Under the pieces are notes generated by a model, which ran no database searches, was not told the origin of the DNA, and was given only the letters and a program-made list of their open reading frames with translations. Both the position numbers and the translations under genes were made by a program. Of a stretch of 42,193 nucleotides of DNA, positions 3,927 through 42,193 are shown one piece after another. Origin of the DNA: a virus; the IMG/VR virus record IMGVR_UViG_3300031753_000017, positions 1 through 42,193 of that record; one strand, given 5' to 3'. Position 1 is the stretch's first letter, and every line of letters begins with the position of its first letter.

Positions 3927-4234
3927 GACCCGAGCAGGGTCTTCAGCGGTGTTCCGGCGTCAAGGTTGGCGCCGGTTGAGAGTGTCGAGGCAACGCCCTG
4001 GCCGAGCAGGCCCTGGACGACGGCGCGCTTCTTTGCGCGGGCGGCAGCCTGGGTGACGTCGAGGACGCCGGGGGTTTTCGCGAGGCCGGCGGACTTCAGT
4101 GTTGAGCCGCCGAACGGGTTGCCGATCGCCATCAGCGCGTCGCGCTTGGCGGGGTCGCCGCCGCTCTGGCGCTGGTAGTTCGCGAACGAGGCAACTCCTG
4201 GGTCGTTGATTCCGCCCTTGATGTTCATCCCCAT
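3923..4234 (-). CDS. Small phage protein between terminase and portal, 103 aa, unknown
   Basis: ATG 4234 shares its A with the terminase stop (TAATG), a tight coupling that fixes the start better than the in-frame codon at 4255, which lies inside the terminase gene. The protein is Gly/Ala/Lys-rich: a short Gly-rich N-terminus, NPFGGSTLKSAGLAK in the middle, and a basic Ala-rich helix (TQAAARAKKRAVVQ) before a Gly/Leu C-terminus. No domain is recognised. Small proteins at this place in BPP-1-like phages are often of unknown function; a minor virion component is the simplest guess. Confidence 0.65.
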   Translation of the reverse strand: MGMNIKGGINDPGVASFANYQRQSGGDPAKRDALMAIGNPFGGSTLKSAGLAKTPGVLDVTQAAARAKKRAVVQGLLGQGVASTLSTGANLDAGTPLKTLLGS

Positions 4235-5724
4235 TACGCGCTCACCCGCCCCCACGGGTCGTACTCGCTGACGTACCCGCCGCCAGTCTCAGGGCGGTCA
4301 CGCACCAGCCCGGCCCGCTCCAGCGGGTCGTACTCCGACACCACGCGCGCAGCCTGGCTCGACAGCCGCTCGCCCCGCGGCACCACCGGCATGGCGAAGG
4401 TGTAGGACAGCGCGTCGGCGCGGTTCGGCGAGGACAGCCCCCGGCGCTTCATCTCCTCCTTCGTCTCGAGCTTCAGCTCGTTCTTGCCGTTGAACCCCAT
4501 CTCGGGACCAATCAGCTCCGCGCGCAGCTTCGGGTCGTTAGGGAGACAACCCTCCTTCTTGACCCACTGCGCCATCTGCCACCACACCTCGGCGCGCCGG
4601 TTGAAGCAGCGCGGGTCCGGCCGTAGCGGCCGCTGTGCCGAGTCGACAGCGAAGCAGGGGTAGCCGAGCTGAATCAGTCGGTCCGCCACCCCCGCGCCGA
4701 CTCCGCACGCATCCACGAAAATGGCATCGGCCTTGAAGTCGTCGGCCTCGAGCGCCACCTGTCCGGCCAGGGTCATGGTGTCGATGCCAGAGAGCACCCG
4801 GGGGGGCCACACTGCGCGACCTTGGCGGCGCAGAATCACGTTCTCGTCGTCGCCGAAGCGGGCCACGTCCACCCCGATGACCTTCGGCTCCGACATGAAC
4901 TCGGATGGCTTGATGGTCCGGCGCACGGCGTCGTCCACGTCGCCGGGGCCGAGGAGCTTGGAGCTGGAGCGCGGCGGGAACTTCCCGAAGACGTTCACCA
5001 GCACAATCGGGTGGTCGCGGCCGTACTTCTCAATCTGCTCCCGCGCCCACTCGATGGTCACCCTGGGCGCGCGGGTCGGGCTGTCGGGGTCGCCGTTGAC
5101 CTCGAATATCCGCCAGAGGTTTCGCTCGCGGGTCACCGCGTCACCCAGCGCCGAGTCGATGTCCGTGGTGTTGCCGGCCAGCAGCAGGTGCGTGTCCCCG
5201 CCGTTCGCCAGCACCGCGTCGGCCGCGGCTACCACCGCGCGGGGCATGCCGCCGGCCTCGTCCGCTACCGCGAGGACGTGCTCGCCGTGGGTGCCGGCGA
5301 GGGTGTTGGACTGCTGTGTAGCGTCGGCGGACTTGCTCCACTGCCGCGCGGACGCCCACCACTCCTCTGGCGAGTCGTTGGCGAAGACGCGCGAGGCCGT
5401 CCAGGTGAACTGCGACGTCAGAACGGGGCTCTCCTTCTGCCACTTCTTCAGCTCCGCCCAGAGGTTGTCGCGCAGGTTCTCGCCGGTGATGGACACGCAC
5501 GGGACTTTGGGGAACGGCCGCGTCATCAGGAACAGCCAGATGAGCCACGCCAGCACCGTCGTCTTGCCGGGGCCCTTGCTCGCGCACAGCGCCACCCGCG
5601 GATTCGAGTTGAACGCGGACAGCACCTCGTCCTGCCAAGCGTCGGGCTCGGCCTTGAGGCACTTGCGCACGAAGACGTTAGGCTCGGCGCGCCAGAGGCG
5701 CAGCGTTGAGACGCTTGCATTCAC
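4234..5724 (-). CDS. terL: Terminase large subunit (packaging ATPase-nuclease)
   Basis: This 496-aa protein is the packaging motor that cuts concatemeric DNA and pumps it through the portal. The ATPase half has a deviant Walker A, CASKGPGKTT (residues 47-56), Walker B VLAVADEA with D157-E158, and a coupling motif LLLAGNTT (181-188). The nuclease half has the RNase-H-fold acidic residues D287 in VIGVDVARFGDD, D339 in AIFVDACGVG and D438 in SPNRADAL. Length and motif order are normal. It starts at GTG 5724 in a GTGA overlap with the upstream gene. The small subunit is separated from it by four small genes rather than being adjacent. The packaging mode (headful or cos) cannot be read from this sequence. 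Confidence 0.95.
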   Translation of the reverse strand: MNASVSTLRLWRAEPNVFVRKCLKAEPDAWQDEVLSAFNSNPRVALCASKGPGKTTVLAWLIWLFLMTRPFPKVPCVSITGENLRDNLWAELKKWQKESPVLTSQFTWTASRVFANDSPEEWWASARQWSKSADATQQSNTLAGTHGEHVLAVADEAGGMPRAVVAAADAVLANGGDTHLLLAGNTTDIDSALGDAVTRERNLWRIFEVNGDPDSPTRAPRVTIEWAREQIEKYGRDHPIVLVNVFGKFPPRSSSKLLGPGDVDDAVRRTIKPSEFMSEPKVIGVDVARFGDDENVILRRQGRAVWPPRVLSGIDTMTLAGQVALEADDFKADAIFVDACGVGAGVADRLIQLGYPCFAVDSAQRPLRPDPRCFNRRAEVWWQMAQWVKKEGCLPNDPKLRAELIGPEMGFNGKNELKLETKEEMKRRGLSSPNRADALSYTFAMPVVPRGERLSSQAARVVSEYDPLERAGLVRDRPETGGGYVSEYDPWGRVSA

Positions 5725-8426: not shown

Positions 8427-8605
8427 CGCCGCCCTCCCTTCGCGCGCAATTGTAGCCGAATCCGCTCCGCTTGCGATTTTGGCGCCGCCTGCTTCGCGGC
8501 CCACTTGTCCATTGCCGCCTTGATGCGTGCGCGCGCCCACGCCCGGGCCTCGTCGCCGGACTTCGCGCCGCCCATGACGTCGCTAGGCTTCTTCCACTCG
8601 TCCAT
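8423..8605 (-). CDS. Small hypothetical protein, 60 aa
   Basis: ATG 8605 has GAGGA directly upstream and overlaps the last 23 bases of the primase-helicase gene. The sequence is a charged, Ala/Arg/Lys-rich helix (DEARAWARARIKAAMDKWAAKQAAPKSQAERIRLQLRAKGGRR), predicted to be helical and strongly basic at its C-terminus. No domain recognised. Confidence 0.6.
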   Translation of the reverse strand: MDEWKKPSDVMGGAKSGDEARAWARARIKAAMDKWAAKQAAPKSQAERIRLQLRAKGGRR

Positions 8606-10487
8606 TCCTCGGCCTTCCAGGCAGCGCGTACTGGCCGCGTTTGAGTTGCAGCACCTTCCCCTGCGAAACAAGCTCGTCCACGTCCTCGAGCACGCGGTGT
8701 CGGCGACCGCGCACAGCCTCGGTGAGCTCGCTCTTGCTCACCGGACTCTTGCGCTTGGCCAGCGCCGCGATGATCCGCCCAGAATAGTCGCTCCTGTCCT
8801 CGATTTCCGACACCGAGACGTTGCCGCTGCCCAGGTCGATACGGAAGTGCTGGGGCTTCGCGCGCTCAAAGCTTCGTTGTTTGGACACCTCCACCGTGAA
8901 CTGGATGGATTCCCCGTCCGCAGGCATCTCGCCAAGGTTGAGCTGCGTGTCGCACCAGCCCGAGAACACAGTGCTGCCGCGGCTGCTGTAGATTTTCGAC
9001 CCGTTACCGGCCTCGCCGTTCTTGCTGGTGTGGTGCAGCACCAGGAACAGGGCGTTCGCGTTGGCGCGGCGGATGACGTTGATGCGGTGGGTCACCATTT
9101 TCGCCGTCTCGGTGTCCTCGTCCCCCAGGAAGAAGGCCGCCAGAGGGTCGAACGGGAACACCGGCGCCGGGCACCCAGTGGCGAACTTGACCATCCGTTC
9201 GATGTACCTGTCATCCGTCAACAGGCACCCGCTTTGGTGGGCTACGTGGAGTTGAGCCAGGGCGTCCTTCGCCAGCCCCATCGCCCGCGCCCGCTTCACG
9301 AAGTCCTTCCTCGAGCCCTCATCCTCGGCGAAGAAGACGTCCCGCTTCGCCCCCAGCGCCGCCTTGATGGCCGCCAGCGTCAGCCACGTCTTGCCGGCAT
9401 TCGGCGCGGAAACCATCAAGACGACGCCTGACGATGGGATGAAGTTCTGAATCAACCAGCTCGGCTCGGGGTCCGACTCTGCCTGGGCTTCAAATTCAGC
9501 CCACGGCACGTAAGGCCAACTCTCGTTCCGTTCCCATGGTTCCGCCCCTTCCACGGAACTTAACGTTTGGTTCCGTTCCCGGGGTCCCTTTAGGGACCCG
9601 GGAACCAAACGTTCCGGGGGGGTCTGGGGGGGGCTTTGGTTCCCGATGGTTCCCGCGTTTTCGGAACCAAGCTCAGGCGTCGACTTGTGGGGTTCAGACC
9701 ACACTTCGTCGACCACCCGCTCGAGTGCGGCCGCTGTTCCCCCGGCCCGAATCCAGTCGGTGACATCCTTGCCGGCGCCCGCCAACAGCAACTCCCGCGC
9801 ATCGACGCCCACGGCCCTCAGCGCCCCGCCAATGCGGCTGCCGTGGGCTAACCCCTCCTTGTCCTTGTCCGGCAGCACCACGACCCGCGCAGCGCCCCTT
9901 AACACCGCCGTATGCTCAGGCCGCCACTTCCCGCTTCCGGCGCCCAGCGGGTTACATGTGGCCACGAAACCCAGCGCGCGGAGGCTATCGACGTCCTTCT
10001 CCCCCTCGACCACATAGACCGTCTGGCCACCGGCGACAGCGCGCAGCACCTCCGGCAGCCGGTAGAGCGGCCGCGGCAGCCCCTGGACGTTGGGAATCCA
10101 GCCCCCGCGACCGTCGGGGCGGCGTTGTCTGAAGTCCTTGGGGTGGAAGCGTAGCACCTGGAATAGCAGCGCCCCCATCTCATCCACGTAGTCGTAGGTC
10201 GCCGTAATCCACCGCTGGGTTGGTGGCGCCGCCTTGGGCGGAAACAGGTCGGCCACCGCCATCCCGAGCGCCCGGGTCACGTCGTCGAGCTCGCACCCGG
10301 CGTGACACTTGAGCAGCGTTCGGCCGTCCGCCCCGACGGCGATGGAGAGGCTCTCGCTCTTGTCCTCGTGCGCCGGGCACAGCGCCTCCCACCCGTTGCC
10401 GCTCTTTCGTGGCGCCTTGCCTGAGGAGCTTTCGATGGCAGCAAGCACGCGCGAGATGGGGTCCATTGCGAAGATGGGGGCGCTCAC
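8583..10487 (-). CDS. Primase-helicase (TOPRIM primase fused to RecA-type ATPase)
   Basis: This 634-aa protein primes and unwinds DNA for phage replication. Numbering from GTG 10487, it has a CHC2-like zinc site (C37-P-A-H40...C61-H-A-G-C65), a TOPRIM domain with YVVEGEKD (about 158-165) and VVVLPDKDKEG (about 203-212), a low-complexity linker (about 264-325), a RecA/RepA-like ATPase with Walker A SAPNAGKTW (about 360-368), acidic strand PVFPFDPLAAFF (about 442-453) and LVLHHTSKN (about 482-490), and a C-terminal winged-helix-like region. GTG 10487 forms a GTGA overlap; ATG 10466 is an alternative. It is the only replication enzyme encoded, so the host must supply the polymerase. The linker-encoding DNA carries the iteron cluster and palindrome described below. 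Confidence 0.9.
   Translation of the reverse strand: MSAPIFAMDPISRVLAAIESSSGKAPRKSGNGWEALCPAHEDKSESLSIAVGADGRTLLKCHAGCELDDVTRALGMAVADLFPPKAAPPTQRWITATYDYVDEMGALLFQVLRFHPKDFRQRRPDGRGGWIPNVQGLPRPLYRLPEVLRAVAGGQTVYVVEGEKDVDSLRALGFVATCNPLGAGSGKWRPEHTAVLRGAARVVVLPDKDKEGLAHGSRIGGALRAVGVDARELLLAGAGKDVTDWIRAGGTAAALERVVDEVWSEPHKSTPELGSENAGTIGNQSPPQTPPERLVPGSLKGPRERNQTLSSVEGAEPWERNESWPYVPWAEFEAQAESDPEPSWLIQNFIPSSGVVLMVSAPNAGKTWLTLAAIKAALGAKRDVFFAEDEGSRKDFVKRARAMGLAKDALAQLHVAHQSGCLLTDDRYIERMVKFATGCPAPVFPFDPLAAFFLGDEDTETAKMVTHRINVIRRANANALFLVLHHTSKNGEAGNGSKIYSSRGSTVFSGWCDTQLNLGEMPADGESIQFTVEVSKQRSFERAKPQHFRIDLGSGNVSVSEIEDRSDYSGRIIAALAKRKSPVSKSELTEAVRGRRHRVLEDVDELVSQGKVLQLKRGQYALPGRPRNGRVEEA
9525..9670. 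repeat. GTTCC/GGAAC iteron cluster inside primase-helicase gene; candidate replication origin
   Basis: Eleven copies of GTTCC or its complement lie within about 145 bases. They start at 9525, 9530, 9539, 9570, 9575, 9611, 9639 and 9649 (top strand) and at 9555, 9601 and 9663 (bottom strand); fewer than one is expected by chance. The longer form TTGGTTCC occurs at 9567 and 9636, and inverted at 9601 and 9663. The block encodes only the flexible linker between primase and helicase, where protein constraint is low. Iterons inside the initiator gene are the arrangement of the lambda origin in gene O, so an origin is proposed. This is inference without functional data. Confidence 0.5.
9562..9613. 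repeat. 52-bp interrupted palindrome within the iteron cluster
   Basis: The outer arms are perfect 13-bp inverted repeats: AACGTTTGGTTCC at 9562-9574 and its complement at 9601-9613. The inner part GGGTCCC-TTTA-GGGACCC (9582-9599) is another perfect 7-bp hairpin. The left arm differs from the right by an extra GTTCC (a tandem duplication) and one extra G. Such a long near-perfect cruciform inside a coding sequence is unlikely to be neutral. A primase or initiator binding site, or an mRNA hairpin, are the options. Confidence 0.85.
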
Positions 10488-10765
10488 GATGGGTCGATCC
10501 ACCGAACGAGCGACAAGCCCTTGTGCTGCATCAGCTCGAGCACCGACGCTTCGTCGCACTCCTCGCACCAGAAGCCTATCTCGACGCTATCGCGGCGCCC
10601 CGACCACCGAGCATCCTCGGCGCCGAGTCTCAGGATCTTGGTGTCGTCGGCGTCCACGGTGACTTCGGTGCCGGCGCAGTCCTCGCCGGACCCACCGCCG
10701 TCGCGTTGGCGCACCGTTACGTAGCCGTGGTGCAGGTATGAGCCCGAACAGCGCGGGCACACCAT
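10484..10765 (-). CDS. Zinc-ribbon phage protein, 93 aa
   Basis: MVCPRCSGSYLHHGYVTVRQ at the start and SGRRDSVEIGFWCEECDEASVLELMQHKGLSLVRW near the end form the two halves of a CxxC...CxxC zinc ribbon. The order CPRC...YLHH...RRD...I.F.CE.C....L.L.QHKG is a recurrent small protein of phages and plasmids; its role is unknown, but similar ribbons bind nucleic acid or polymerase. ATG 10765 is the start nearest the conserved motif; GTG 10822, with GGAGGGG just upstream, would add 19 residues. It ends in a GTGA overlap with the primase-helicase. Confidence 0.7.
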   Translation of the reverse strand: MVCPRCSGSYLHHGYVTVRQRDGGGSGEDCAGTEVTVDADDTKILRLGAEDARWSGRRDSVEIGFWCEECDEASVLELMQHKGLSLVRWIDPS

Positions 10766-10845: not shown

Positions 10846-11421
10846 CTAGGACCTGTGCCACACCAACAAGACACACCCGAACGGCGGAGCGCCGACGCCA
10901 ATGCCGAGCGGATTCCCGGGAATGCCGAACCTGGATCGACCAGGCAGGAAGTAGGTTCGCAAGCCATGCTCGCTGCGCCCGTCGCGAAGCGGCTCGACGT
11001 GCTCCTGCCACCATCGCTGCTCGCACCGGCATGCAGGCAGCAGCATCGCAATCAGCTCGCAGCGCGGAAACTCGGCCCACGCTTTGCGCAACCACGGCTC
11101 GATATCCGAATACGGGGGATTGCACCAGACGCGCCCGGACCACGGCCGGGCCAGCCCGTTCTGCTCGGTCCCGAACCAGATCGGCGCGTGGCGACTTTCC
11201 TCGCAGGCCGCAACGTCCAGGTCGAAGGCGTCCACGCCGCAAACCCTCTTCGCCCACTCCAGCGTCTCGCGAGTCGTGAAGCGCTGGTCGTCGTCGATCC
11301 GTGGCACTATTGACGGCGGCAGCGGAATGAGTTCGTGTTGGGCCTCACGGGCCTCACGGGCCTCACGGGCCTCACGGGCCAAGGCTGCTCGTTTCTTGAA
11401 CGCCTGAGACTGGCTCGCCAT
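10846..11421 (-). CDS. Dam-type DNA N6-adenine methyltransferase
   Basis: This 191-aa protein has the catalytic motif WCNPPYSDIEPWLRKAW (NPPY at residues 101-104) and, upstream, FDLDVAAC (67-73), the order expected for the phage DNA N-6-adenine-methyltransferase (Dam) family, which transfers methyl from S-adenosylmethionine to adenine. Likely roles are shielding phage DNA from host restriction or marking DNA for replication or packaging. ATG 11421 lies five bases past the previous stop, with no strong ribosome site. Residues 14-27 are an Arg-Glu-Ala repeat encoded by a 9-bp tandem repeat, which probably forms a charged helix. Family length is normal. The target sequence cannot be predicted. 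Confidence 0.85.
   Translation of the reverse strand: MASQSQAFKKRAALAREAREAREAREAQHELIPLPPSIVPRIDDDQRFTTRETLEWAKRVCGVDAFDLDVAACEESRHAPIWFGTEQNGLARPWSGRVWCNPPYSDIEPWLRKAWAEFPRCELIAMLLPACRCEQRWWQEHVEPLRDGRSEHGLRTYFLPGRSRFGIPGNPLGIGVGAPPFGCVLLVWHRS
11341..11380. repeat. 9-bp tandem repeat (GGCCTCACG x4) in the methyltransferase gene
   Basis: Four exact copies of GGCCTCACG plus a partial fifth encode an Arg-Glu-Ala repeat near the methyltransferase N-terminus. Because the unit is 9 bp, slippage would add or remove three residues without breaking the frame, so the segment could vary in length between isolates. Confidence 0.9.
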
Positions 11422-15897: not shown

Positions 15898-16152
15898 ATG
15901 AGTCACGTTCCAGACGTAAACGGCGAGTGCTCCGAATGTCACAAGGCGGAGCGCGCCGCTCTTTCGGCTGAAGTCGGGCGCCTGCGCGAGGAGGTGGCTA
16001 GAGATAAGTCAGCAATCTTCGCCGCTGTGCGGACCGAGAACGAAGCCTGCGCGCGCATCGCGGAGGACATGAACGTGGACGCCATCGGCTCGCACGAAGC
16101 CAGGACAACCATCGCCGCCGCAATCCGACAACGAGGAGGCGCCACAAAATGA
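15898..16152 (+). CDS. Coiled-coil hypothetical protein with Cys pair, 84 aa
   Basis: ATG 15898 has GAGG three bases upstream. A CSECHKAE motif (CxxCxxxE) is followed by a leucine-spaced coiled coil (LSAEVGRLREEVARDK) and a helical tail with ENEACARIAEDM and IAAAIRQRG. The ENEACA.IA....A.........IA.AIR.RG pattern is common in small phage proteins, function unknown. It overlaps the next gene by ATGA. Confidence 0.6.
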   Translation: MSHVPDVNGECSECHKAERAALSAEVGRLREEVARDKSAIFAAVRTENEACARIAEDMNVDAIGSHEARTTIAAAIRQRGGATK

Positions 16153-16904
16153 GTCAGCTACTCGCGTACCACGGTGACCCGAAGGTTAAGGCGAAGTACC
16201 TCGCCCGCGTTCGCGCCCACCGCAAGGCGGATGAGTTGGTGCAGGGCGTTGGCTTCGAGCGGAACGGCGAGACACGCGGCTGTGCCGTGGGCTGCACGTT
16301 GGACGCCTACGACCACGCGCGCTATCCGGTCGAGCTTGGCATGCCCGAAATGCTGGCTCGACTTGAGGATGCGATTTTCGAGGGCCTGCCGAAGGCCAAG
16401 GCGCTGGAGTGGCCGACGCAATTCCTCTCGGCCGCGAAGCCTGGTGCCGACCTCTCGCTTGTCGGCTGGAAGTTCCTTGCGTGGCTACTGAGCGACGAGA
16501 AGGTCAATCCAGGCATCAACCATCCGTTGGTCCGCGACGCCGTGAAGCGCTGCGCCAACATGATGCACGACATGGGCGAAGGAAAGAAGGTGGCCGAGTC
16601 CGCCAGGTCCGCCGCCGAGTCCGCCGCCAGGTCCGCCGCCTGGTCCGCCGCCGAGTCCGCCGCCTGGTCCGCCGAGTCCGCCGCCTGGTCCGCCGCCAGG
16701 TCCGCCGCCGAGTCCGCCGCCTGGTCCGCCGAGTCCGCCGCCTGGTCCGCCGCCAGGTCCGCCGCCTGGTCCGCCGCCTGGTCCGCCGAGGCCGCCGCCG
16801 AGTCCGCCGCCAGGTCCGCCGCCAGGTCCGCCGAGTCCGCCGCCTACGTACTCATGTCTAAGAAGCTTCTGACTCTCATGCGCGCCGCCCCGGTGAGCAG
16901 ATGA
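16149..16904 (+). CDS. Ser-Ala-Ala-Trp/Arg/Glu repeat protein, 251 aa
   Basis: The first about 140 residues form a folded-looking alpha-rich domain (YHGDPKVKAKYLARVRAHRKADELVQG, GCAVGCTLDAYDHARYPVELGMPEMLARLEDAIFE). About 80 residues follow that are built from (W/R/E)SAA units with the order S-A-A-W, S-A-A-R, S-A-A-E. The protein ends in a hydrophobic/basic tail (YVLMSKKLLTLMRAA). Proteins with this kind of domain plus SAA-repeat tail occur in other phages; the repeat number varies, and function is unknown. ATG 16149 overlaps the preceding stop. The repeat likely forms a long helix with a Trp/Arg/Glu stripe. Confidence 0.7.
   Translation: MSQLLAYHGDPKVKAKYLARVRAHRKADELVQGVGFERNGETRGCAVGCTLDAYDHARYPVELGMPEMLARLEDAIFEGLPKAKALEWPTQFLSAAKPGADLSLVGWKFLAWLLSDEKVNPGINHPLVRDAVKRCANMMHDMGEGKKVAESARSAAESAARSAAWSAAESAAWSAESAAWSAARSAAESAAWSAESAAWSAARSAAWSAAWSAEAAAESAARSAARSAESAAYVLMSKKLLTLMRAAPVSR
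16596..16843. repeat. Degenerate 9-12-bp tandem repeats encoding SAA(W/R/E)
   Basis: About 250 bases consist of TCCGCCGCC units separated by TGG, AGG or GAG. They keep the frame open on both the main frame and an Arg-rich alternate frame. Such arrays expand or contract readily by slippage in multiples of three and are hard to assemble, so the copy number shown may not be exact. Confidence 0.9.
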
Positions 16905-25370: not shown

Positions 25371-28300
25371 TCACTCCCGGCCACCGCTAACTGCGTCCTG
25401 AATCATGGTGAGCGGGTTCTCGCGCCGCTTCTTGGTCTGCCCGTAGATGGCGCCCCCGGCCACGTCGAAAGGTCCGCGGGGCTCGCTCTCGCCGGTATCC
25501 AGGCCGCCGAGGTAGTGGACAGATGCGAATAGCGGGTCGCTCAGAAACCCCGCCATGCTCTCTGCGGTCTTCCAGAACGCATTCAGGCTCTCTGGCGTTT
25601 CCTTGTCGTGGAGCTTGTCGACCAGCTTGTTGATGCCGTTCTCGGCGAACTCAAGCCCCGGCAGCGTCTGAAAGTGCATGTGCTTGCCTTCTAGCAGGGC
25701 GCCAAGGCCGCTACGCGCATCGCCGATGAGCGGAATGGTCTCCGGGACAGTGAGCAGGAGTCGGTTCAGCGTCCAGTGCCCCCACTCCTCGTCCTTGCCT
25801 GGTCCGCGGCCGCGGAGGATGGACGAGACAATGCCATCGACCAAGACCGTGCCGAGCATCGTTCCGGCCAACCCTGCTGCTGCCCGACCGGCGGTCAGGC
25901 CATCGGAACTCGCCCCGTGCGCCGCCAAATACATCGCCTCGGCCGCGCGCCGGTTGATGTTGTAGAGCTTGGACGTGTAGCTGTACATGAAGATGAGCGC
26001 CCCGAGGCCACGCTTGTCGGTCAGAATGGCCGGCTTCTCGTGCGGGTCCAGGCTAGGCAGAACCTCGGCCACGGCAGCGTTCGCCGCACTCCGAGCCTCG
26101 TCGAGCGACATCCCCTCATCGAGAGACTGCCGAAGCTTGGCGTCGAACGTGGCCGTTCCGGTCATGCGGTCTACGACCTGGTGGAGGTAGAACGCGGTAT
26201 CGGCTACGCTCCGGTAGACCGACTTCAGGCCAGTGGCCCCATCCGCGAAGCTGCTGGTCAGCTTCATGATGTTGTTGTCGTGGGTCGAGTCGCGGAAGCG
26301 TAGCTCGGACGAGTTGGCCAGGGCCTGCTCTCGCATCGTGGTGCCCTTGAATGGCACCCAATACTTCGCAAGCGACGTCGCCAAGTAGTCCGGCCGCACC
26401 CTGCCGCTCACTATGCCCATGAGCGAGTCCGTCGTAACGCCGAGGGCAGACTTGAGGCTCCATCCGACGGCATGCACCGCGTACGGACCCTTTAATGCTG
26501 ACGTCGCCTTCTCGAGCATCCCGCCAGGGCCCTCTGGCATCGACAGAACCTGCTGACCGGCGAGCCTCTGAAGTCTTGGAATTAGGTCGGCGGAGTAACC
26601 TTCGCCCCAGTGCTCGTCGAGCGCCGCCTTGACCTGTGGGTCGAGGAAGATGTTGGCGAGGTCTTTAACGTACCCCCTGTAGGCGATGTCGTGGATGACT
26701 TGCGAGATGTGGTTCCCGACGATGTTCCATGAAAGGTCAATCGGCTGATCCGTCACAGCGGCCGCTCGCTTCTTGGAGAACGACGCTGAGATGCCTGGTC
26801 GGTAGTAGGCGTCAGGGAAGACATCGGCCACGCTCTTGGCGTCCTCGGCGAACTGCTTCCTGCCAACGTCGCTGCCGCGCTTGTCGTACTTTGCCGGGTG
26901 GTATCCGCCGGCTCCGTCCCACGTAGAGCCATCAGACAGTCGCAAATGGATGGGCTCGGCCTCCACCTTCTTGGGCCTCAGCCCCGTCTCCCTCTCGTGA
27001 ACGTCGGCCATCGGCGAGTACAGGCCGTTGACCTGATTCAGCGTCAGTTGCAGGAAGTCCAACTCGGACTTAGTGAGCTGTCCGAGCTTCTGTTCGATGA
27101 TGCCGCGGTCCCACTTCCTGCCATCGGCCAGGCGTTGGCGATTACCCTCCGATCCCCAATTAAGCAGCATCGACCAAAGCGTCGACCTTGTGCGGTTGTC
27201 GACGAGCCTTTTGCCGCTCGGCAACATCGTCGTTGGTAGGCCGCCAAGGTCCACTGGTTCAGACATCTTTCGCCGGATGTCTTTCGGTAGACGCTCGAAT
27301 GCGTCCTCCAGCGGCTTCATGGTCTGCTCGGTGAGGCCCACGGCAATGTCTCTCTTCGCCTTGTACGTATCGACCAACACCTCATGCCACGGACCAGTGT
27401 TGCCGCCGTCCAGGGAGAAGGCGATGGTTTCGAGGTCCTGCAGCATGGCGTCGGCCGACTGAGCAAAGAGTCGCGACTTCTCGGCGAGCCCGCGGTTGGA
27501 GCGCTGTTCGGCCGGCAACGGCAACTCTGGCCTGCTCTTGACGCGCTCGATAAGCCTGGCGTTCAGGGCCGCCCGCGTCTCCAGCCTACCGGCCGCCTCC
27601 GTCTCCAGCGATGCCTTCGCGGCGGCACGGATATTGGTCACCGCATCCACGACGTTATTGGCCTCGTCCACAGTGAGCGACCCACGCCATTCCTTCGGTC
27701 TGGCGAGCAACTTGCGCACCGCGTCAACGTCGAAATCCATATCCTGGCCAGCGCGTTCGGCCACATCGAGCATGTGGTCCAGAGTGGCGGAACCGTCTGG
27801 CGGAGAATTGCCGAGACCGACCGCAGCCAGGATGGCGTCGTGGACGTCCCGGTATGCGGGGTCCGCCTTGCCCAGGCTGCCGCGGACGCGGTCGCTGACG
27901 TTGGAAAATGAATCCTCGGCCGCCTCGAGCGCCAGCCTCTGGTCGCGCGACTCCATGTATAGCATCTTGTTCAGGATTCGCTTCTCGCGCGCCTCGGCAG
28001 CGCCTTCGTGGTCGCCCTTGCCTTCGAGCTTCGCCGCCAGCTGCGCCTGCTTGCGCTCGGCACGGGCGTACTTCTCCGGGTCAATCTGTTCGACGTACTG
28101 TTCGCCCACCAGGCGCTCCACGCTGCCGCGCTCGAGCTTCGGGTCGAGCAACTGCGCCCTGGCGGCAGCGGCGGGGTTCAGTTCCTTCGCCTTCGCCCGG
28201 TTCTCCAGGACGGCAGCGTTGAGCTCGTCGTCGTTGTGGGCCGCGGACATTGCCGACTCGGCCAGGCGCTTCGCCTCCGGTCCATACTTGGCGTCAATCT

Positions 28301-31300
28301 GCTGCTGCGCTAGGCGCTCGATGGCCGCGTCTCTGGGTTCGAGCTTGGTCAGCTGCTCCTTCATCGACTCCGGCGACTCGAAGCCCAGCGCCGTGGAGAC
28401 GGCGTCCACCGGGGCCCCGCCCTTCTTGAGCGAGCCCGGCGGCATCTTGGCGGCCGCCTCGGGGCCGAAGCGCTCCACGAAGTCGGCGCGGTTCAGCTTC
28501 ACCGGCTTGCCTTCGTGGGTCAGGGCCTCGGCGGCACCATCCGGCACGGCGCCATTCTGGAGGAAGTTCCAGGCCCGGTAGCGCGGGTCGGAGTCGAGCT
28601 GCTTCTCGGCCGCGTCGCGGAACGTCTCGCGGTCGGCCTCGATGGCGGTCTGCTGCTTCTTGGCCTCCGCCGCCATCTCCATCTCGGCCGAGGCTTGGGA
28701 GTCGGCCTTGGCGCGCTGGAGTTCCTCGCGCTCGGATGGTGACATCTTGGAGATATCTGGCTCCGTTATTCCGCTGTCCGCGCGCGCCTTCTTAAGGGCG
28801 TCGTCATGGGAGAGCATCCGGTCGAAGATGCCGCGGACCTCGTCGGAGAGCAGGACTGCGTGGCCGTAGTTCGCGCGGTACTGCTCCTCGATGTCGGAGA
28901 GGCCGCCCTTGTAAATTGAAAGCATCCAGCGCCGGAGCGTCGAGAAGACGCGCGAGAGGCGCTTGCCGGGGGACCTGCCTTCAAGGGCGTACATCTCGAA
29001 GGCGTGGCTGAACTTCTCTTCCTTGGCCGCAATCTCCTGAGCCCTGGCCGCCTCTCCTTCGCCGGCTTCGGGGCCTTTCCTGCCGATGGTGTCGCGCTCC
29101 AGGTTCTCAGCCGCGCGGGCCTCGGGGCTGTCGTAGCCCATCCAGTCGAGCAGGTTCTTGTAGTCTGCGCGCATCCCCTCCGGCGCAGCGGCGGAGGTCG
29201 CGAGCTCGTGCATCGACCATGAGAGGGCGTGGCCGATTTCGTGCAGCAACGTCGACTTGTCAGCCGTCGCTGACAGGCGGATGCGGTACCAGTCCGGGCT
29301 GCCGGTGGTCGGGTTCGGCTCCAGGACGATGGAGCCGCGGGGGCCGGTGTCGTCCTCCTCTGGCTTGAACGTGGCCGGCTTGCCTTCGATGTTGCCCAGG
29401 GGCTCCTGATGGAGCTTGCTGGTGATGGAGATGCGCCTGTCATCCCAGATGACGTAGTTGTGGGTGCCCTCGCCTTTGGCTCTGGAGCCTTGGTCGAGGT
29501 ATTTCAGGCCGGGCACGCCGGCGGCGCGCAAGGCCTCGGATGCGGCCTGCGGCGATCCTGTCTTCTCGACGAGGTAGTCGTAAAATTCGGAGCCATTGGC
29601 GTCGGCCAACGTCGCAAATCCTTGGTACGGCTCTCCGCTGGCGCTCGGGTACGGAGGCGGTTTTCCACCGCGCTCCACCTCGTTGGCCGGATAACCCGAG
29701 TGCTCCTTGACCAGCGCATCGGCGGCCGCACGGACTTGCTCAGACTGCTCGCTGATCGGCTTGTCGTAGTCGAGCAATTCGCCGTGCTCGGGTAGTTCAA
29801 CGCCGTAGAGCGATCCTCGTGGTGGCGTCTTGATGTCCTCTGGCTTCATTGCGTCGAGGATGTCGCGCTGTTTGACGTATCGCTCGCGGGTCTTGGAGTA
29901 ATTTTCTATCGTGCCGACGAACTGAGGGCTGGTCTTGGCGATCCGCTCATCGTAGTGGGCGATTGATCGCTCAACGTCGGCCTTCACGTTCCTGATGGCG
30001 CCAAGCGCGTCAGCCCCTGGCCTCGCCATCTCGATCTCCAGGCCGGAGGCGATGGCGCCAAGTACGGGATCGTCGGGTGACGGAAATTTGCCAAATATCT
30101 GGAGCGGGGCGCTGCCGGTGAGCGCGTGCCGGTAGTGCTCGGCCACCGCCTTCTCGCCAGCGAAGTAGAGGCCCCACCCGTACGTCTGGTGGCCTTCGCC
30201 GGTGCCGATTGCGTGCAGGCTGAAGTTCTCGAAGTCGTGCGGTGACCCGTGCCAAGCCCCCTGCTCCAACTGCCTATAGTTCAGCCCCGCGAACTCGCCC
30301 GCCGGCAGCTGTCGCCCAAGCCGCGCCTTCTTCAGCGCCGACGGCTCCTCTCCGAACCTGCGCGGCCCAGCAAGCGGTCGCTCCTCGTGCGCCGTTGCTG
30401 CGAACTGCTCCTCGCCCTCGCGAACACCCACGCCAATGCGCGCGTTGACATCCTGCTCGATGTCGCGTGGCGTCGCCGGGCGCGTGTCGCTGCTGCCGGT
30501 CAGGTAGTCGAAATACTCCTGGGTCTGCGCCTTGCGCGACCGCAGGCCGTCAATCCACTTCTGCGTTGAGTCTACTGCGTCGAGGTAGGCGGCCCGCTCT
30601 TCGCCGCCATAGCCCGCCGGCGCAGCAACTCTTCCTCCGCCGCGTCCTCCCTGGCCCACCGACGGCGGCGCTCCGCCCGCTCCTCCTCGGTCGGCTGCAC
30701 CACCTTCACTACCGCCCCCTTCGGGAGCGCCAGGAACTCGTCCAGGCTTAGGTAGCTTCTTTCTCCGTTGGAGGTCTGCTTCGGCGTGTTCGAGTTCGCG
30801 TCCTGCTTCCCCGAGTTTTCCGACTCCATAGTGCAACCCCAGTCTGATGGTCTCCGGCTTGCCGTCGACCGTTACTTGGACACCCTCATTCTTAAGCCTT
30901 TCCTCGAAACGCGCAACCCACCGCCCAAGCAGCGCCGGGTCGTCGTGCTCTCCAACCAGCGTATCCCCATGTAAATGCGAGATTGTGATGTCGGTGCCGC
31001 CCATGTCGGCCGCCAGCTTCTTGATGGCGGAGATGACGGCATCGCCAACCTCGCGCCCATGCGTCTTGTTGATCTCGTCAAACCTGGCGACGTCCATGAT
31101 GGCCTGGTTCGCCTTGCGCGTGAGGGCCTGACGCCCGGCCAGGTTGTAGACGCCCTCGGGTTCGACGTAGGCGCGCTCCACCCGCTGCCTGGTCCCCATC
31201 GGCTCGAACTGCTCCGTGAGGTGCGGCGGCATCGCCACGGCTGGCTTCTCGGTGGGCCAGACGATGTCCTTCATTTCGCCCTTGATGCCCTTCGGTTTCT

Positions 31301-33845
31301 CGGGAGGCAGAAGCTCAGGTTTGCCGTCCTCGCCGATGGTGGGCTTTCCGTTCTCGTCGATCTTCGGCGGTCTGGAGTTTGCGCGGCGCCCGGCGGCAAC
31401 CTCGGCATCGCGCCAGTCCTCGTGCGCCTTGAGCGCCTGCTCGAACGTCTCGCCAGTCTTGCCGGTAATGGCGAAACCGCCGAGCCCCTTCGCGGCCATC
31501 TCCTCGTTGGCCTTCTTTAGGACGCTTTCAAGCTCGCCCTCGTGTTCCACGTGGAACGAAAAGCCGCCGCCGACGCGGGCCAGGTCGGTTGCGCCAGTCT
31601 TGGATAGCGCGTTTGCTGCGGCCCGCGGGAGCAGGTCGCCGGCGCCCTCGCCAAGCTCCGTGTTGACGGACTTCTGCCCCTCGGCCTCCGCGTAGACCGT
31701 CAACGGCTTGTCCGGCGGCGCGGGGGTGAGCTTCGCCGCGCGCTCGTTCGGCAGGCCGGTGTTTGGGTCCCGGTAGGCCTCCTCGGCCAGCTTGGCGGTT
31801 GTCTTGGACGGCGTGAGTTCCTCGAGTTGTCGAGTGCGCTCCGGGGCCGAAGTGATGTGCGCCAGCTGTCTCAGCGCCTCCGTCGCTGGCGCCGAGCCAT
31901 TCTTGCCCTCGATGATGAGCCGGTGGATCTTTCCCTCCCTGGCTGCGTCGCCCACGCCGATGCCACGCTTCAGTGCCTGGGCCGCAGTGAACTCGCTGAC
32001 CAGCTTGCTGATCTGGTTGGCCTCGGCCTCGGTCCGACCGGCGGCCAGCACCTGGTCCTTGATGGCCTGTCGGACGATATCCTTCTCCTCCTCGAACTGT
32101 GGCCCCCGCTCCTTCGCCGCCTGCTCGAGTTGTGCCTGGACGTCCTTTTGCGCCTCCGACCGTTCGCGCATCGTAGCCGTACCTGGCGCAGTCCTGGTGT
32201 CCTCCAGCAGCCCAGCGGCGTGCTCGGTGCCGGCGATGTGGGTCAGGTAGTCGGCCTTGCTGATGGTGATGTCGCCGCCGGTGCGGCTGGCCTCCTCATA
32301 GGAGTCAGACGCGCCCGCCTTGGCCGCCTGCTCCATCGGGTTCAGCTTCTTGCTCTGGAAATACTCGTTCCAGCGCTCGACGGGGAAGGACACTGTTGGC
32401 GGATCAAAGGCGCCAGATATGCCGAGCCTCCTTCCCGTCTCCTGCCATGTCGCCGGCTGGCCCTTGAACTCCGGTTCGCGAGCGGGTGGCGCCCGGTCTG
32501 GATCCTTGCGGTTGAGGTGGTTTACCAACTCCTTGAACGACTCCGGGGCCTCCGTGCGCAGCGTCGACGCCGCGGCGCTGTCGGCGTCGTGCGCGAACAG
32601 CCCAAGGCGCGCGAGGTCCACGCTCTCCGGCGACTGGAGCCACCCTTTCGGCGAGTAATTCCACAGCTCGCCCGCCTTGCCGACGCCGTGGGCGATGGTC
32701 GGGATGGCCTCGCCCAGGACGCCGTGGAGCACCGCCCCGCCCTGGAAGCCGTGCCAAAACGACTCCCACGGCGCCTCGTTCTCGTTGGTGTTGATGAGGG
32801 CGCTGATTCCCCCCATCTCGACGCCGGCACCAAGGTGACGGGCCGCAAGGGCAGCGGCCTTCTGGGCGACCAGCTGTGAGCCTTTGGGCGCCAGCCACGG
32901 GCCGATCTCGACGGTTGACGCAGCCCGCGCTGCCGCCCACTCCGCTGACGTTCCGTATTTCTCCGCCAAGCCAACGCCGGGGGCCATGAACCACGGCAGG
33001 GCGTCGACGGCGAAGTTGACGCCGTAGGCCCCCCAGTTGCCGAGGCTGGACACCAGTGCGCGCTCGGCGAGGTCGCGGTCCTCCTGTGGCGTCTTCCGGT
33101 AGGCTTGCTCACCGAGGACCGCAGAGAGCAGCCTGCGCTGGGTAATTTCCGTGGCTTCGTCCGAGCCGCCGCTCAGGTAGTTCTTGGCGATGAACTTGGC
33201 GGTGCCGTAGGGGTCGGTCGACGGCATCCCGTTCGCGTCGGTGATGCCGGACAGCGCCGTGAGCGAGCGGCCGAAGTCCTCCACCTCGTCAGCGGCGAAG
33301 CGCTGGGCCTTCTGGACGCCGGGGGTGATGACGTTCTGAAACGCGCTGCCGATGGCGTGCAGGAGAGGCGATGTCTTCGTCGACTCGTCAGCCCAGCGCT
33401 TGAACGCGCCCATGTTGGCCGACTCGCCGCCCTCCTTGAGCAGCCGCTGCGTCTCCTGGCGCAACTGGTTCGCCCACTCCAGCCGCTGGAGCCGCTCGTG
33501 CTCCGCGGGTGTGTCGCGCAGCATCGCCTGAACCCGCGGGTTCTCGGTCAGGAACTTGGCCAGGACCGGGGCCCGCTGCGCCAGCAGCTCCCAGTTGACC
33601 GCCCCGGCGCCGACGGCCTTGCGCACGCCATCCATGTTCTCGGCCACTAGGTCTGGGTCGAGTCCGGCCGCCTTGCTGTAGTTGAGCACGTCGGCCTGCA
33701 GGCGCGGCTCGAGGTCGGAGTGCTCATGGCGGAAGGCGAGGAGCTTGCCGGCGGCGGGCGCTGGGTCGGTCGGCGCGTCCTCCGGCAGGTCGTCGAACTT
33801 CGGCGCTGGGGGCGCGTCCTCCGGCAGGTCGTCGAACGAGGCCAT
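25371..33845 (-). CDS. Giant polyvalent ejection/internal virion protein, 2824 aa
   Basis: This one gene takes 20% of the genome. It begins with the repeated FDDLPEDAP tag. Domains seen: two degenerate GGDEF-like regions (about 705-790, GGGFSF in place of GGDEF at about 758; about 910-1010, HGDT at about 958), a Gly-rich linker (about 1030-1075), an ADP-ribosyltransferase-like motif HGSPHDFENF (H1199) with YGWGLYFA at about 1221, and a zincin HEIGHA (H1535, H1539). A long helical region follows, with a hydrophobic stretch late in the C-terminal third. Large polyvalent proteins of this kind are carried in virions and injected into the host. The position after the internal virion proteins fits T7 gp16-like ejection. 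It starts right after the upstream stop. Confidence 0.85.
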   Translation of the reverse strand: MASFDDLPEDAPPAPKFDDLPEDAPTDPAPAAGKLLAFRHEHSDLEPRLQADVLNYSKAAGLDPDLVAENMDGVRKAVGAGAVNWELLAQRAPVLAKFLTENPRVQAMLRDTPAEHERLQRLEWANQLRQETQRLLKEGGESANMGAFKRWADESTKTSPLLHAIGSAFQNVITPGVQKAQRFAADEVEDFGRSLTALSGITDANGMPSTDPYGTAKFIAKNYLSGGSDEATEITQRRLLSAVLGEQAYRKTPQEDRDLAERALVSSLGNWGAYGVNFAVDALPWFMAPGVGLAEKYGTSAEWAAARAASTVEIGPWLAPKGSQLVAQKAAALAARHLGAGVEMGGISALINTNENEAPWESFWHGFQGGAVLHGVLGEAIPTIAHGVGKAGELWNYSPKGWLQSPESVDLARLGLFAHDADSAAASTLRTEAPESFKELVNHLNRKDPDRAPPAREPEFKGQPATWQETGRRLGISGAFDPPTVSFPVERWNEYFQSKKLNPMEQAAKAGASDSYEEASRTGGDITISKADYLTHIAGTEHAAGLLEDTRTAPGTATMRERSEAQKDVQAQLEQAAKERGPQFEEEKDIVRQAIKDQVLAAGRTEAEANQISKLVSEFTAAQALKRGIGVGDAAREGKIHRLIIEGKNGSAPATEALRQLAHITSAPERTRQLEELTPSKTTAKLAEEAYRDPNTGLPNERAAKLTPAPPDKPLTVYAEAEGQKSVNTELGEGAGDLLPRAAANALSKTGATDLARVGGGFSFHVEHEGELESVLKKANEEMAAKGLGGFAITGKTGETFEQALKAHEDWRDAEVAAGRRANSRPPKIDENGKPTIGEDGKPELLPPEKPKGIKGEMKDIVWPTEKPAVAMPPHLTEQFEPMGTRQRVERAYVEPEGVYNLAGRQALTRKANQAIMDVARFDEINKTHGREVGDAVISAIKKLAADMGGTDITISHLHGDTLVGEHDDPALLGRWVARFEERLKNEGVQVTVDGKPETIRLGLHYGVGKLGEAGRELEHAEADLQRRKKLPKPGRVPGAPEGGGSEGGAADRGGAGGAPPSVGQGGRGGGRVAAPAGYGGEERAAYLDAVDSTQKWIDGLRSRKAQTQEYFDYLTGSSDTRPATPRDIEQDVNARIGVGVREGEEQFAATAHEERPLAGPRRFGEEPSALKKARLGRQLPAGEFAGLNYRQLEQGAWHGSPHDFENFSLHAIGTGEGHQTYGWGLYFAGEKAVAEHYRHALTGSAPLQIFGKFPSPDDPVLGAIASGLEIEMARPGADALGAIRNVKADVERSIAHYDERIAKTSPQFVGTIENYSKTRERYVKQRDILDAMKPEDIKTPPRGSLYGVELPEHGELLDYDKPISEQSEQVRAAADALVKEHSGYPANEVERGGKPPPYPSASGEPYQGFATLADANGSEFYDYLVEKTGSPQAASEALRAAGVPGLKYLDQGSRAKGEGTHNYVIWDDRRISITSKLHQEPLGNIEGKPATFKPEEDDTGPRGSIVLEPNPTTGSPDWYRIRLSATADKSTLLHEIGHALSWSMHELATSAAAPEGMRADYKNLLDWMGYDSPEARAAENLERDTIGRKGPEAGEGEAARAQEIAAKEEKFSHAFEMYALEGRSPGKRLSRVFSTLRRWMLSIYKGGLSDIEEQYRANYGHAVLLSDEVRGIFDRMLSHDDALKKARADSGITEPDISKMSPSEREELQRAKADSQASAEMEMAAEAKKQQTAIEADRETFRDAAEKQLDSDPRYRAWNFLQNGAVPDGAAEALTHEGKPVKLNRADFVERFGPEAAAKMPPGSLKKGGAPVDAVSTALGFESPESMKEQLTKLEPRDAAIERLAQQQIDAKYGPEAKRLAESAMSAAHNDDELNAAVLENRAKAKELNPAAAARAQLLDPKLERGSVERLVGEQYVEQIDPEKYARAERKQAQLAAKLEGKGDHEGAAEAREKRILNKMLYMESRDQRLALEAAEDSFSNVSDRVRGSLGKADPAYRDVHDAILAAVGLGNSPPDGSATLDHMLDVAERAGQDMDFDVDAVRKLLARPKEWRGSLTVDEANNVVDAVTNIRAAAKASLETEAAGRLETRAALNARLIERVKSRPELPLPAEQRSNRGLAEKSRLFAQSADAMLQDLETIAFSLDGGNTGPWHEVLVDTYKAKRDIAVGLTEQTMKPLEDAFERLPKDIRRKMSEPVDLGGLPTTMLPSGKRLVDNRTRSTLWSMLLNWGSEGNRQRLADGRKWDRGIIEQKLGQLTKSELDFLQLTLNQVNGLYSPMADVHERETGLRPKKVEAEPIHLRLSDGSTWDGAGGYHPAKYDKRGSDVGRKQFAEDAKSVADVFPDAYYRPGISASFSKKRAAAVTDQPIDLSWNIVGNHISQVIHDIAYRGYVKDLANIFLDPQVKAALDEHWGEGYSADLIPRLQRLAGQQVLSMPEGPGGMLEKATSALKGPYAVHAVGWSLKSALGVTTDSLMGIVSGRVRPDYLATSLAKYWVPFKGTTMREQALANSSELRFRDSTHDNNIMKLTSSFADGATGLKSVYRSVADTAFYLHQVVDRMTGTATFDAKLRQSLDEGMSLDEARSAANAAVAEVLPSLDPHEKPAILTDKRGLGALIFMYSYTSKLYNINRRAAEAMYLAAHGASSDGLTAGRAAAGLAGTMLGTVLVDGIVSSILRGRGPGKDEEWGHWTLNRLLLTVPETIPLIGDARSGLGALLEGKHMHFQTLPGLEFAENGINKLVDKLHDKETPESLNAFWKTAESMAGFLSDPLFASVHYLGGLDTGESEPRGPFDVAGGAIYGQTKKRRENPLTMIQDAVSGGRE
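30572..30829 (-). CDS. Possible overprinted 85-codon gene inside the giant gene
   Basis: A second frame starts at ATG 30829, with GGGG eight bases upstream, and reads a balanced hydrophilic protein: polar N-terminus, YLSLDEFLALPKGAVVKVVQP core and a charged helix (EEERAERRRRWAREDAAEEELLRRR). By hand count about 75 of 85 codons end in G or C, against roughly half in the main frame over the same bases, where the giant protein is a Gly-rich linker. That bias suggests the alternate frame is, or once was, translated. The alternative is a pair of compensating frameshifts in the giant gene. Function unknown. Confidence 0.4.
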   Translation of the reverse strand: MESENSGKQDANSNTPKQTSNGERSYLSLDEFLALPKGAVVKVVQPTEEERAERRRRWAREDAAEEELLRRRAMAAKSGPPTSTQ

Positions 33846-41436: not shown

Positions 41437-42193
41437 TTACGAAACAACCGCCTCCGTTCCGGTGAGCCCGTCGGTGATGCGGACGGGGATGCCGAGCACG
41501 TGCATCAGGAACTCCGCGCCCACCTGCTCGAAGGTGATTTGGTACTTCGCGAAGTTGCGGGCCTGGAGGTGCAGGTACGTGGCCGTTTTGCGGTCCATGT
41601 ACCAACGGAAGTTCGCACCCTGAGTCGAGTACAGCTGGTGATACGCCTTGATCATGGCCGGGACGATGATGTCGGCGGTGGGGTCGAAGTTCGAGGTGTC
41701 GATGTTGCACACCCGAACCACGTAGCGGTAGTCGGCCACGACGAGCCCGACCTTCCACTCCCAATACGTCTGCCACGCGACGAACGTCTTGCCGCTGGAG
41801 GTCACGGGCAGCTTGCCCAAGTCCTCCATGGTGATGCCGCCCTTGGAGGACTTGGGGTAAATCATGTAGACCGTCTCCGGTCCCCACCCCACGAGCCAAA
41901 TGCTGTGCTGGTCCGAGCCGGACGCCGCGGAGTCAGCCTTCACAATCTGGCTGCCGTAGGTTCCGGTGGAGCTGTTGAGGCGCGCGGTCAGTCCGAGGAA
42001 CTTCTCGGGGTTCGTCAACGTCGAGTGGTAGAACGCGCCCGTCTCCACCTCGTTGTTCATCGCCATCATGAACCGGCGGTCCTGTCCGGCCCGGTACGCG
42101 GGTCCGTTGCCGTTCAGGTCCAGCACCGCCTGGTCAACGATGCTCATGCCGGCCAAGAGGCCGCAGGACTCGTCGAACTGGTCAGTGACGGCC
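41437..42193 (-). CDS. Major capsid protein, C-terminal part (gene continues at 363-1)
   Basis: The main part of the 330-aa capsid protein; residues 79-121 appear both here and at 1-127 because of the terminal repeat. Segments LNGNGPAYRAGQDRRFMMAMNNEVETGAFYHSTLTNPEKFLGLTARL and VCNIDTSNF...MDRKTATYLHLQARN are typical of this HK97-fold family (the AD..F..A.N...E...FYG block and a late A-domain). It ends ITDGLTGTEAVVS. The reading frame is open to the window end and joins in phase with 1-363. Confidence 0.92.
   Translation of the reverse strand, partial: AVTDQFDESCGLLAGMSIVDQAVLDLNGNGPAYRAGQDRRFMMAMNNEVETGAFYHSTLTNPEKFLGLTARLNSSTGTYGSQIVKADSAASGSDQHSIWLVGWGPETVYMIYPKSSKGGITMEDLGKLPVTSSGKTFVAWQTYWEWKVGLVVADYRYVVRVCNIDTSNFDPTADIIVPAMIKAYHQLYSTQGANFRWYMDRKTATYLHLQARNFAKYQITFEQVGAEFLMHVLGIPVRITDGLTGTEAVVS
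42067..42193. repeat. Direct terminal repeat, right copy
   Basis: Exact copy of bases 1-127; see that entry. Removing one copy gives a 42,066-bp circle with an intact capsid gene. Confidence 0.95.

Follow-up and report, generated by a model that had tools for sequence, protein, structure and literature searches.

The alpha protein of phage P4 binds iterons through a C-terminal DNA-binding winged helix, and oriII of P4 lies inside the alpha gene, while oriV of RSF1010 consists of iterons plus hairpin primase sites (ssi). In P4 alpha, helicase and primase are fused in one polypeptide (PMC7145576). RSF1010 RepA is an AAA_25/DnaB-like hexameric helicase, and the AAA_25-type replicative helicase family was described in 2022 as being without known function (PMC8965321). 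The initiator helicases SaPI Rep and SCCmec Cch2 use their C-terminal domain to recognise iterons directly downstream of their own gene (PMC7581432), and PICI have the same layout as SaPI, i.e. with the iterons 3' of the initiator helicase gene (PMC6092414); in the SCCmec case these are 5-nt AAGTG iterons, accompanied by inverted repeats (PMC7581432; PMC6092414). An origin can also lie within a gene, as does the lambda ori inside the O gene, which encodes its own initiator (PMC3985674), and the repABC oriV inside repC (PMC3155836). Finally, pRN1 has an essential stem-loop 3' of its primase-helicase-winged-helix gene, and a similar one is predicted in phage BIP-1 (PMC4234260).

The window analysed here (the whole 42,193-bp stretch of IMG/VR record IMGVR_UViG_3300031753_000017) contains short repeats clustered about a hairpin, inside the gene of a TOPRIM primase/AAA_25 helicase (Table 1). 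This array is quite likely the iteron-type replication origin of the phage, predicted to be located in the DNA that codes for the disordered linker of the phage's own primase-helicase. On the best reading, the proposed origin would work like the SaPI/PICI rep-ori and P4 alpha, by means of unrelated enzymes.

Table 1. Features of the primase-helicase locus (window coordinates)
Feature	Position	Strand	Remarks
TOPRIM primase/AAA_25 helicase gene	8583..10568	-	661 codons from GTG; Pfam AAA_25 E 5e-16; PHROG primase, primase/helicase
C-terminal winged helix, aa 595-648, proposed iteron-binding domain	8625..8786	-	AF2 helix-helix-helix-wing, pLDDT about 85-93
AAA_25 (RecA/DnaB/RepA-like) helicase domain, aa 359-519	9012..9494	-	Pfam
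Iteron array, 11 GTTCC/GGAAC pentamers, four as TTGGTTCC	9525..9670		encodes aa 300-348, disordered linker insert
Near-palindrome, inverted iterons TTGGTTCC / GGAACCAA flanking hairpin	9562..9613		13-nt arms, 100% complementary; fold z -3.4
Hairpin GGGTCCC-TTTA-GGGACCC	9582..9599		inner part of palindrome
G7-TCT-G8 tract between iterons	9616..9633	+	from sequence
TOPRIM domain, about aa 181-260	9789..10028	-	EGEKD and DxD motifs invariant
CHC2-like zinc region, aa 64-92	10293..10379	-	C64, C88, C92 invariant, H89 nearly so, in 33 homologues

The locus differs from the known systems in its enzyme families, in its GGAACC-plus-hairpin signature and in the position of the array in the linker of a primase-helicase. 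The helicases of SaPI and PICI are D5/MCM-like AAA+ proteins, with primases that are separate or different, whereas the window combines AAA_25 with TOPRIM in a T7 gp4-like fold. In PICI origins two iteron sets flank an AT-rich region, which is absent in the window, and the iterons of SaPI and PICI lie downstream of the gene, whereas the array of the window lies inside it (three relatives, L113, L114 and L137, do fit the downstream layout). P4 alpha has an SF3 helicase, another primase and other iteron sequences, in contrast to the RecA/DnaB-like helicase of the window, for which a winged helix is also predicted. RSF1010 RepA is related by fold to the window helicase, and AAA_25 domain, iterons and hairpin are all present in the window; however, RSF1010 employs three proteins (the RepA helicase, the RepB' primase and the iteron binder RepC), whereas primase, helicase and putative binder are found in one protein here. 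Neither lambda O nor RepC is a primase-helicase; lambda has four 19-bp iterons, and in repC an AT-rich region is present but iterons have not been detected. The window does have the lambda-type layout of iterons inside the coding sequence, and resemblance of the recognition helix suggests that they may be bound by the encoded protein. Lastly, pRN1 and BIP-1 have an SF3 helicase and an archaeo-eukaryotic primase, without a short-iteron array like that of the window.

A perfect 127-nt direct terminal repeat (1-127 and 42067-42193) makes the contig look complete and circularly closed, at ~42,066 bp, and the counts of pentamers and octamers therefore apparently span the whole genome. An earlier note on this DNA had described eleven pentamers in about 145 bp, and these were all recovered (at 9525, 9530, 9539, 9555(-), 9570, 9575, 9601(-), 9611, 9639, 9649 and 9663(-)), against 0.40 expected there; the whole 42,193 bp holds 111. 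The note had also named equal frequency of the motif elsewhere in the genome as an argument against its reading, but the densest other 146-bp stretch of the window holds at most 3 pentamers. The 11 pentamers in 146 bp, as candidate repeats of an iteron-type origin, are thus unequalled in the genome, and their binding by an initiator is a prediction. The four 8-bp copies in both orientations were confirmed as well: TTGGTTCC occurs five times in the window (1.04 expected from dinucleotide shuffles, with 0 of 100 shuffles reaching 5), and four of these copies, two on each strand, lie within the array. An AT-rich unwinding element is common in iteron-type origins, though not universal; beside the array there is none, the best 30-bp AT fraction (0.57) being ordinary for the genome. 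The G7-TCT-G8 tract is a possible quadruplex candidate.

With the segment forming an insert within a disordered linker, the repeats could in principle be the by-product of a low-complexity linker peptide, or a functionless mobile palindromic insert. However, the pentamers occupy all three codon phases and both strands, and when the same peptide was recoded with resampled synonymous codons, 20,000 trials averaged 1.6 pentamers and none had more than 7, against 11 observed, which indicates a constraint on the DNA and not on the peptide. Moreover, the array recurs at similar genes of other phages and is single copy in its own genome, a DNA search of which returned only the array itself (a dispersed element is thereby ruled out). 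A by-product or insert of this kind is therefore extremely improbable.

The 52-bp near-perfect palindrome with its inner hairpin, as previously described, was also upheld. Its outer arms (AACGTTTGGTTCC / GGAACCAAACGTT) are perfect over 13 nt, and the palindrome as a whole is imperfect because the left arm has an additional GTTCC and one additional G. As single-stranded DNA, the array segment folds better than 200 out of 200 shuffles. The hairpin core CCCTTTAGGG occurs once in the window genome, and it is also found within the arrays of L137, L149, L240 and L300 and in the matches of the hairpin-motif scan described below, while the hairpins of L113 and L114 have the form CCCTGAAAGGG. That this hairpin would be a transcription terminator or an RNA structure, with the pentamers being incidental, is hardly credible: the hairpin of the relatives does lie just 3' of the stop codon, a place where terminators are found, but a T-run after the hairpin is absent in the window, L113 and L240, the hairpin of the window is inside an ORF, and the pentamers are 13-fold over expectation around the motif-scan matches.

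Pfam, PHROG and AF2 agree with the earlier claim that the array DNA codes for the linker between the TOPRIM primase and the RecA-like helicase. In the AF2 model, the linker (residues 296-365) has a pLDDT below 50, and the residues encoded by the array fall wholly within this disordered part. The top PDB structural match of the primase-helicase model is T7 gp4; a PDB sequence search with the protein gave no relative and no match to the solved RepA. An ATG at 10466 is possibly the true start, judging from homologues that start near residue 36. The stand-alone model of the C-terminal winged helix, whose recognition helix starts at R622-R623 (about 8664-8705), matched PDB winged-helix domains with a target TM of 0.85-0.89, at E-values of only ~0.003-0.01.

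A profile search gave a sample of 80 IMG/VR homologues of the primase-helicase, of which 76 loci were binned (250-bp bins, from -3 to +3 kb) and searched for clusters, defined as one 6-mer occurring five or more times, with copies on both strands. Such clusters were present in the first 250 bp 3' of the stop codon in 11 of the 76 loci, versus 0-4 (usually 0 or 1) in other bins; in most of the 80 homologues this 6-mer search detected no array, which counts against the origin reading. The iteron 6-mer varies among the phages (GTCCCA, AGTCAC, CGGGAC, AGTGGA, GGAACC and others). The close relatives L113, L114 and L137, which match Toprim_2 (Pfam), have GGAACC arrays, and the accompanying CCC-T(G)AAA-GGG hairpin lies at +106 from the stop in L113, at +109 in L114 and at +83 in L137. 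Small plasmids whose primase is of this kind also have repeats just 3' of the rep gene, namely Salinibacter pSR14 (GGTCCA) and a 9.7-kb Roseomonas plasmid (TGGACA).

The window linker is an insert of ~44 residues relative to the closest array-bearing relatives, and is lacking in L113, L114 and L137; none of the sampled homologues has an array in the corresponding linker. Homologues that keep the linker but lack the repeats, which had been put forward as a reason to reject the origin, were thus not what was found, as the relatives lack both and carry repeats 3' of the stop codon instead. With the window protein alone as query, only one distant match in viral contigs and one in genome contigs were obtained, and among 20 relatives sharing the epsilon15-like portal there were 3 weak matches only and no close relatives. 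By sequence comparison within this sample, the linker location is special to this phage and the conserved place is 3' of the stop codon. The comparison shows that the cluster is genuine, and of a kind that relatives keep just 3' of the gene. The repeats are in or next to a replication gene and are kept in relatives, while the exact place differs (linker versus 3' end). Of the self-contained origin inside the primase-helicase gene, as proposed in the earlier note, the recurrence of GGAACC repeats and hairpin at AAA_25 primase-helicases supports the origin itself, whereas the linker is not a conserved location for it.

The association with helicase genes was also obtained from DNA motifs, without use of protein information. 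Scanning IMG/VR with the pattern GGTTCC-N0-22-CCCTWWAGGG-N0-22-GGAACC gave 45 loci (including the near duplicates L300/L329, L318/L321/L331/L345 and L336/L349), with a median of 9 pentamers around the motif versus 0.7 expected. AAA_25 was found in 28 of 38 ORFs overlapped or followed by the motif (the only arrangements scanned; the 38 were hand-picked from a longer list), compared to 0 of 40 control ORFs located more than 1.5 kb from the motif on the same contigs; 9 of the same 38 had Prim-Pol and 3 had DnaB_C. In most matched loci, the hairpin lies 16-201 bp 3' of the helicase stop codon, and in two cases it is in the C-terminal tail. The motif match L325 and the protein-search match L358 share one contig, i.e. 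the independent searches converge. In an earlier scan for GGAACCA in three copies, most matches were coding repeats with a period of 3; the non-periodic bidirectional clusters, which alone were kept, led among others to Prim-Pol/AAA_25, VapE-like and DnaB genes. Two other scans gave mostly chance matches: TTGGTTCCGTTCC...GTTCC (31 matches) and the palindrome scan TTTGGTTCC...GGAACCAAA (20 matches), the latter with three genuine clusters at which a replication gene was not identified.

These scans bear on the possibility that the GGAACC sites are an operator or autoregulatory site, at which the same protein or a repressor controls transcription and not the start of replication. Initiators commonly autoregulate, an HTH regulator in L046 is preceded by bidirectional GGAACC sites, and the clusters in L050/L051 and L200/L201/L218/L219/L258 are intergenic, without a replication gene identified nearby. 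Nevertheless, an operator is unlikely, as the array lies mid-gene or at the gene's 3' end rather than at a promoter, and the hairpin-motif matches adjoin replicative helicases in the proportion given above, with small plasmids sharing the layout. That the array serves partition, packaging, the termination of replication or the control of copy number by handcuffing, and that the protein binds it to this end, is very unlikely; established plasmid biology does know iteron arrays with roles in incompatibility and copy control, and a palindrome could stall forks, but there is one array per replication gene, and its link to the primase-helicase gene across primase types (TOPRIM, Prim-Pol) and helicases points to initiation. 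Thus, the recurrent replicative helicase gene, the position of the array outside a promoter, the hairpin without T-run and the insufficiency of codon choice each make an alternative less likely than a replication origin.

As for what may bind the iterons, the earlier suggestion of the primase or its zinc domain is unsupported. Instead, the co-occurrence of domain and array and the resemblance of recognition helices suggest that the putative binder is the C-terminal winged helix of the same protein. In proteins with GGAACC arrays, a basic pair tends to stand at the beginning of the recognition helix (the window has GRRHRV, and others include IRRTEI, HRRAVL, ARREEV, GRKQDN and GKRTDK), versus VSKSTA, MPPKTA or LPHSTC in proteins with other iterons. 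L420, found by protein search outside the seed set, has an ARRTDA helix, and its C-terminal tail carries an array of 13 pentamers. With the strict definition (both residues R or K), the difference is 11 of 16 versus 1 of 5, which is not significant (Fisher p 0.12) and is a post hoc comparison with few negatives, so the correlation between recognition helix and iteron is a lead rather than a result.

During initiation at the proposed origin, the winged helix would bind the inverted and direct GGTTCC/GGAACC sites, as co-occurrence and helix resemblance suggest. By analogy with SaPI Rep and Cch2, the bound array might then assemble helicase rings to the left and right of the palindrome. The GC-rich hairpin, extruded or exposed on strand opening, could perhaps be where the TOPRIM primase assembles or primes, after which the AAA_25 motor would unwind outward and the primers would presumably be extended by a host polymerase. 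It is conceivable, if still somewhat doubtful, that many AAA_25 primase-helicase phages have an undescribed class of portable origin, in which short bidirectional iterons surround a CCC-TNNA-GGG hairpin. The iteron word would be read by the recognition helix in the C-terminal winged helix of the helicase itself, iteron and helix co-varying as lock and key, and the cassette would be able to shift from the gene's 3' end into disordered coding segments (the C-terminal tail or, here, the interdomain linker).

To our knowledge, origins are unknown for most phages known from metagenomes alone, and a DNA signature tied to a common replicative helicase family would make origins, as well as the initiator domain, predictable in many virus genomes. 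On the origin reading, a simple code would also be expected to link the recognition helix to the iteron it is specific for. No description of the GGAACC-hairpin signature with AAA_25 helicases was found in the open-access literature, most subscription journals being outside the scope of that search.

Several other GGAACC-type clusters were observed. Rhizobium phage RHph_Y3_1 (MN988490.1, cultured; L435) has nine GGGAAC sites at 4204-4511, directly 3' of its annotated primase/helicase gene, and this array includes a CCCTTCTAAAGAAGGG hairpin. L200, L201, L214, L218, L219 and L258 are related low-GC viral contigs with 9-site, 300-bp bidirectional GGAACC clusters that are apparently intergenic. 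In L209 (400-720) and L220 (7000-7300), GGAACC clusters lie within genes of short helix-turn-helix proteins resembling lambda O-type initiators.

With regard to the rest of the genome, the portal is epsilon15-like (also with a Head-tail_con match), which makes the phage a podovirus. The earlier note had proposed to look for a GC-skew switch near 9.6 kb; the skew minimum is at 11.8 kb, 2.2 kb from the array, at the point where gene orientation switches. Together with the lack of an AT-rich element, this is a main weakness of the origin reading. Close to the skew minimum and the orientation switch is a perfect 9-bp tandem repeat (GGGCCTCAC x4.6, 11340-11380), near the N-terminal end of a Dam-like methyltransferase frame. 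A 2824-aa protein is encoded at 25371-33845, with weak GGDEF-like and ART-PolyVal matches under the curated cut-offs. Finally, a GC-rich tandem array with periods of 12, 24 and 57 bp (GTCCGCCGCC, 16598-16844) lies inside the frame 16149-16904, where it encodes the C-terminal SAAESAAWSAARSAA repeats of a 251-aa protein.
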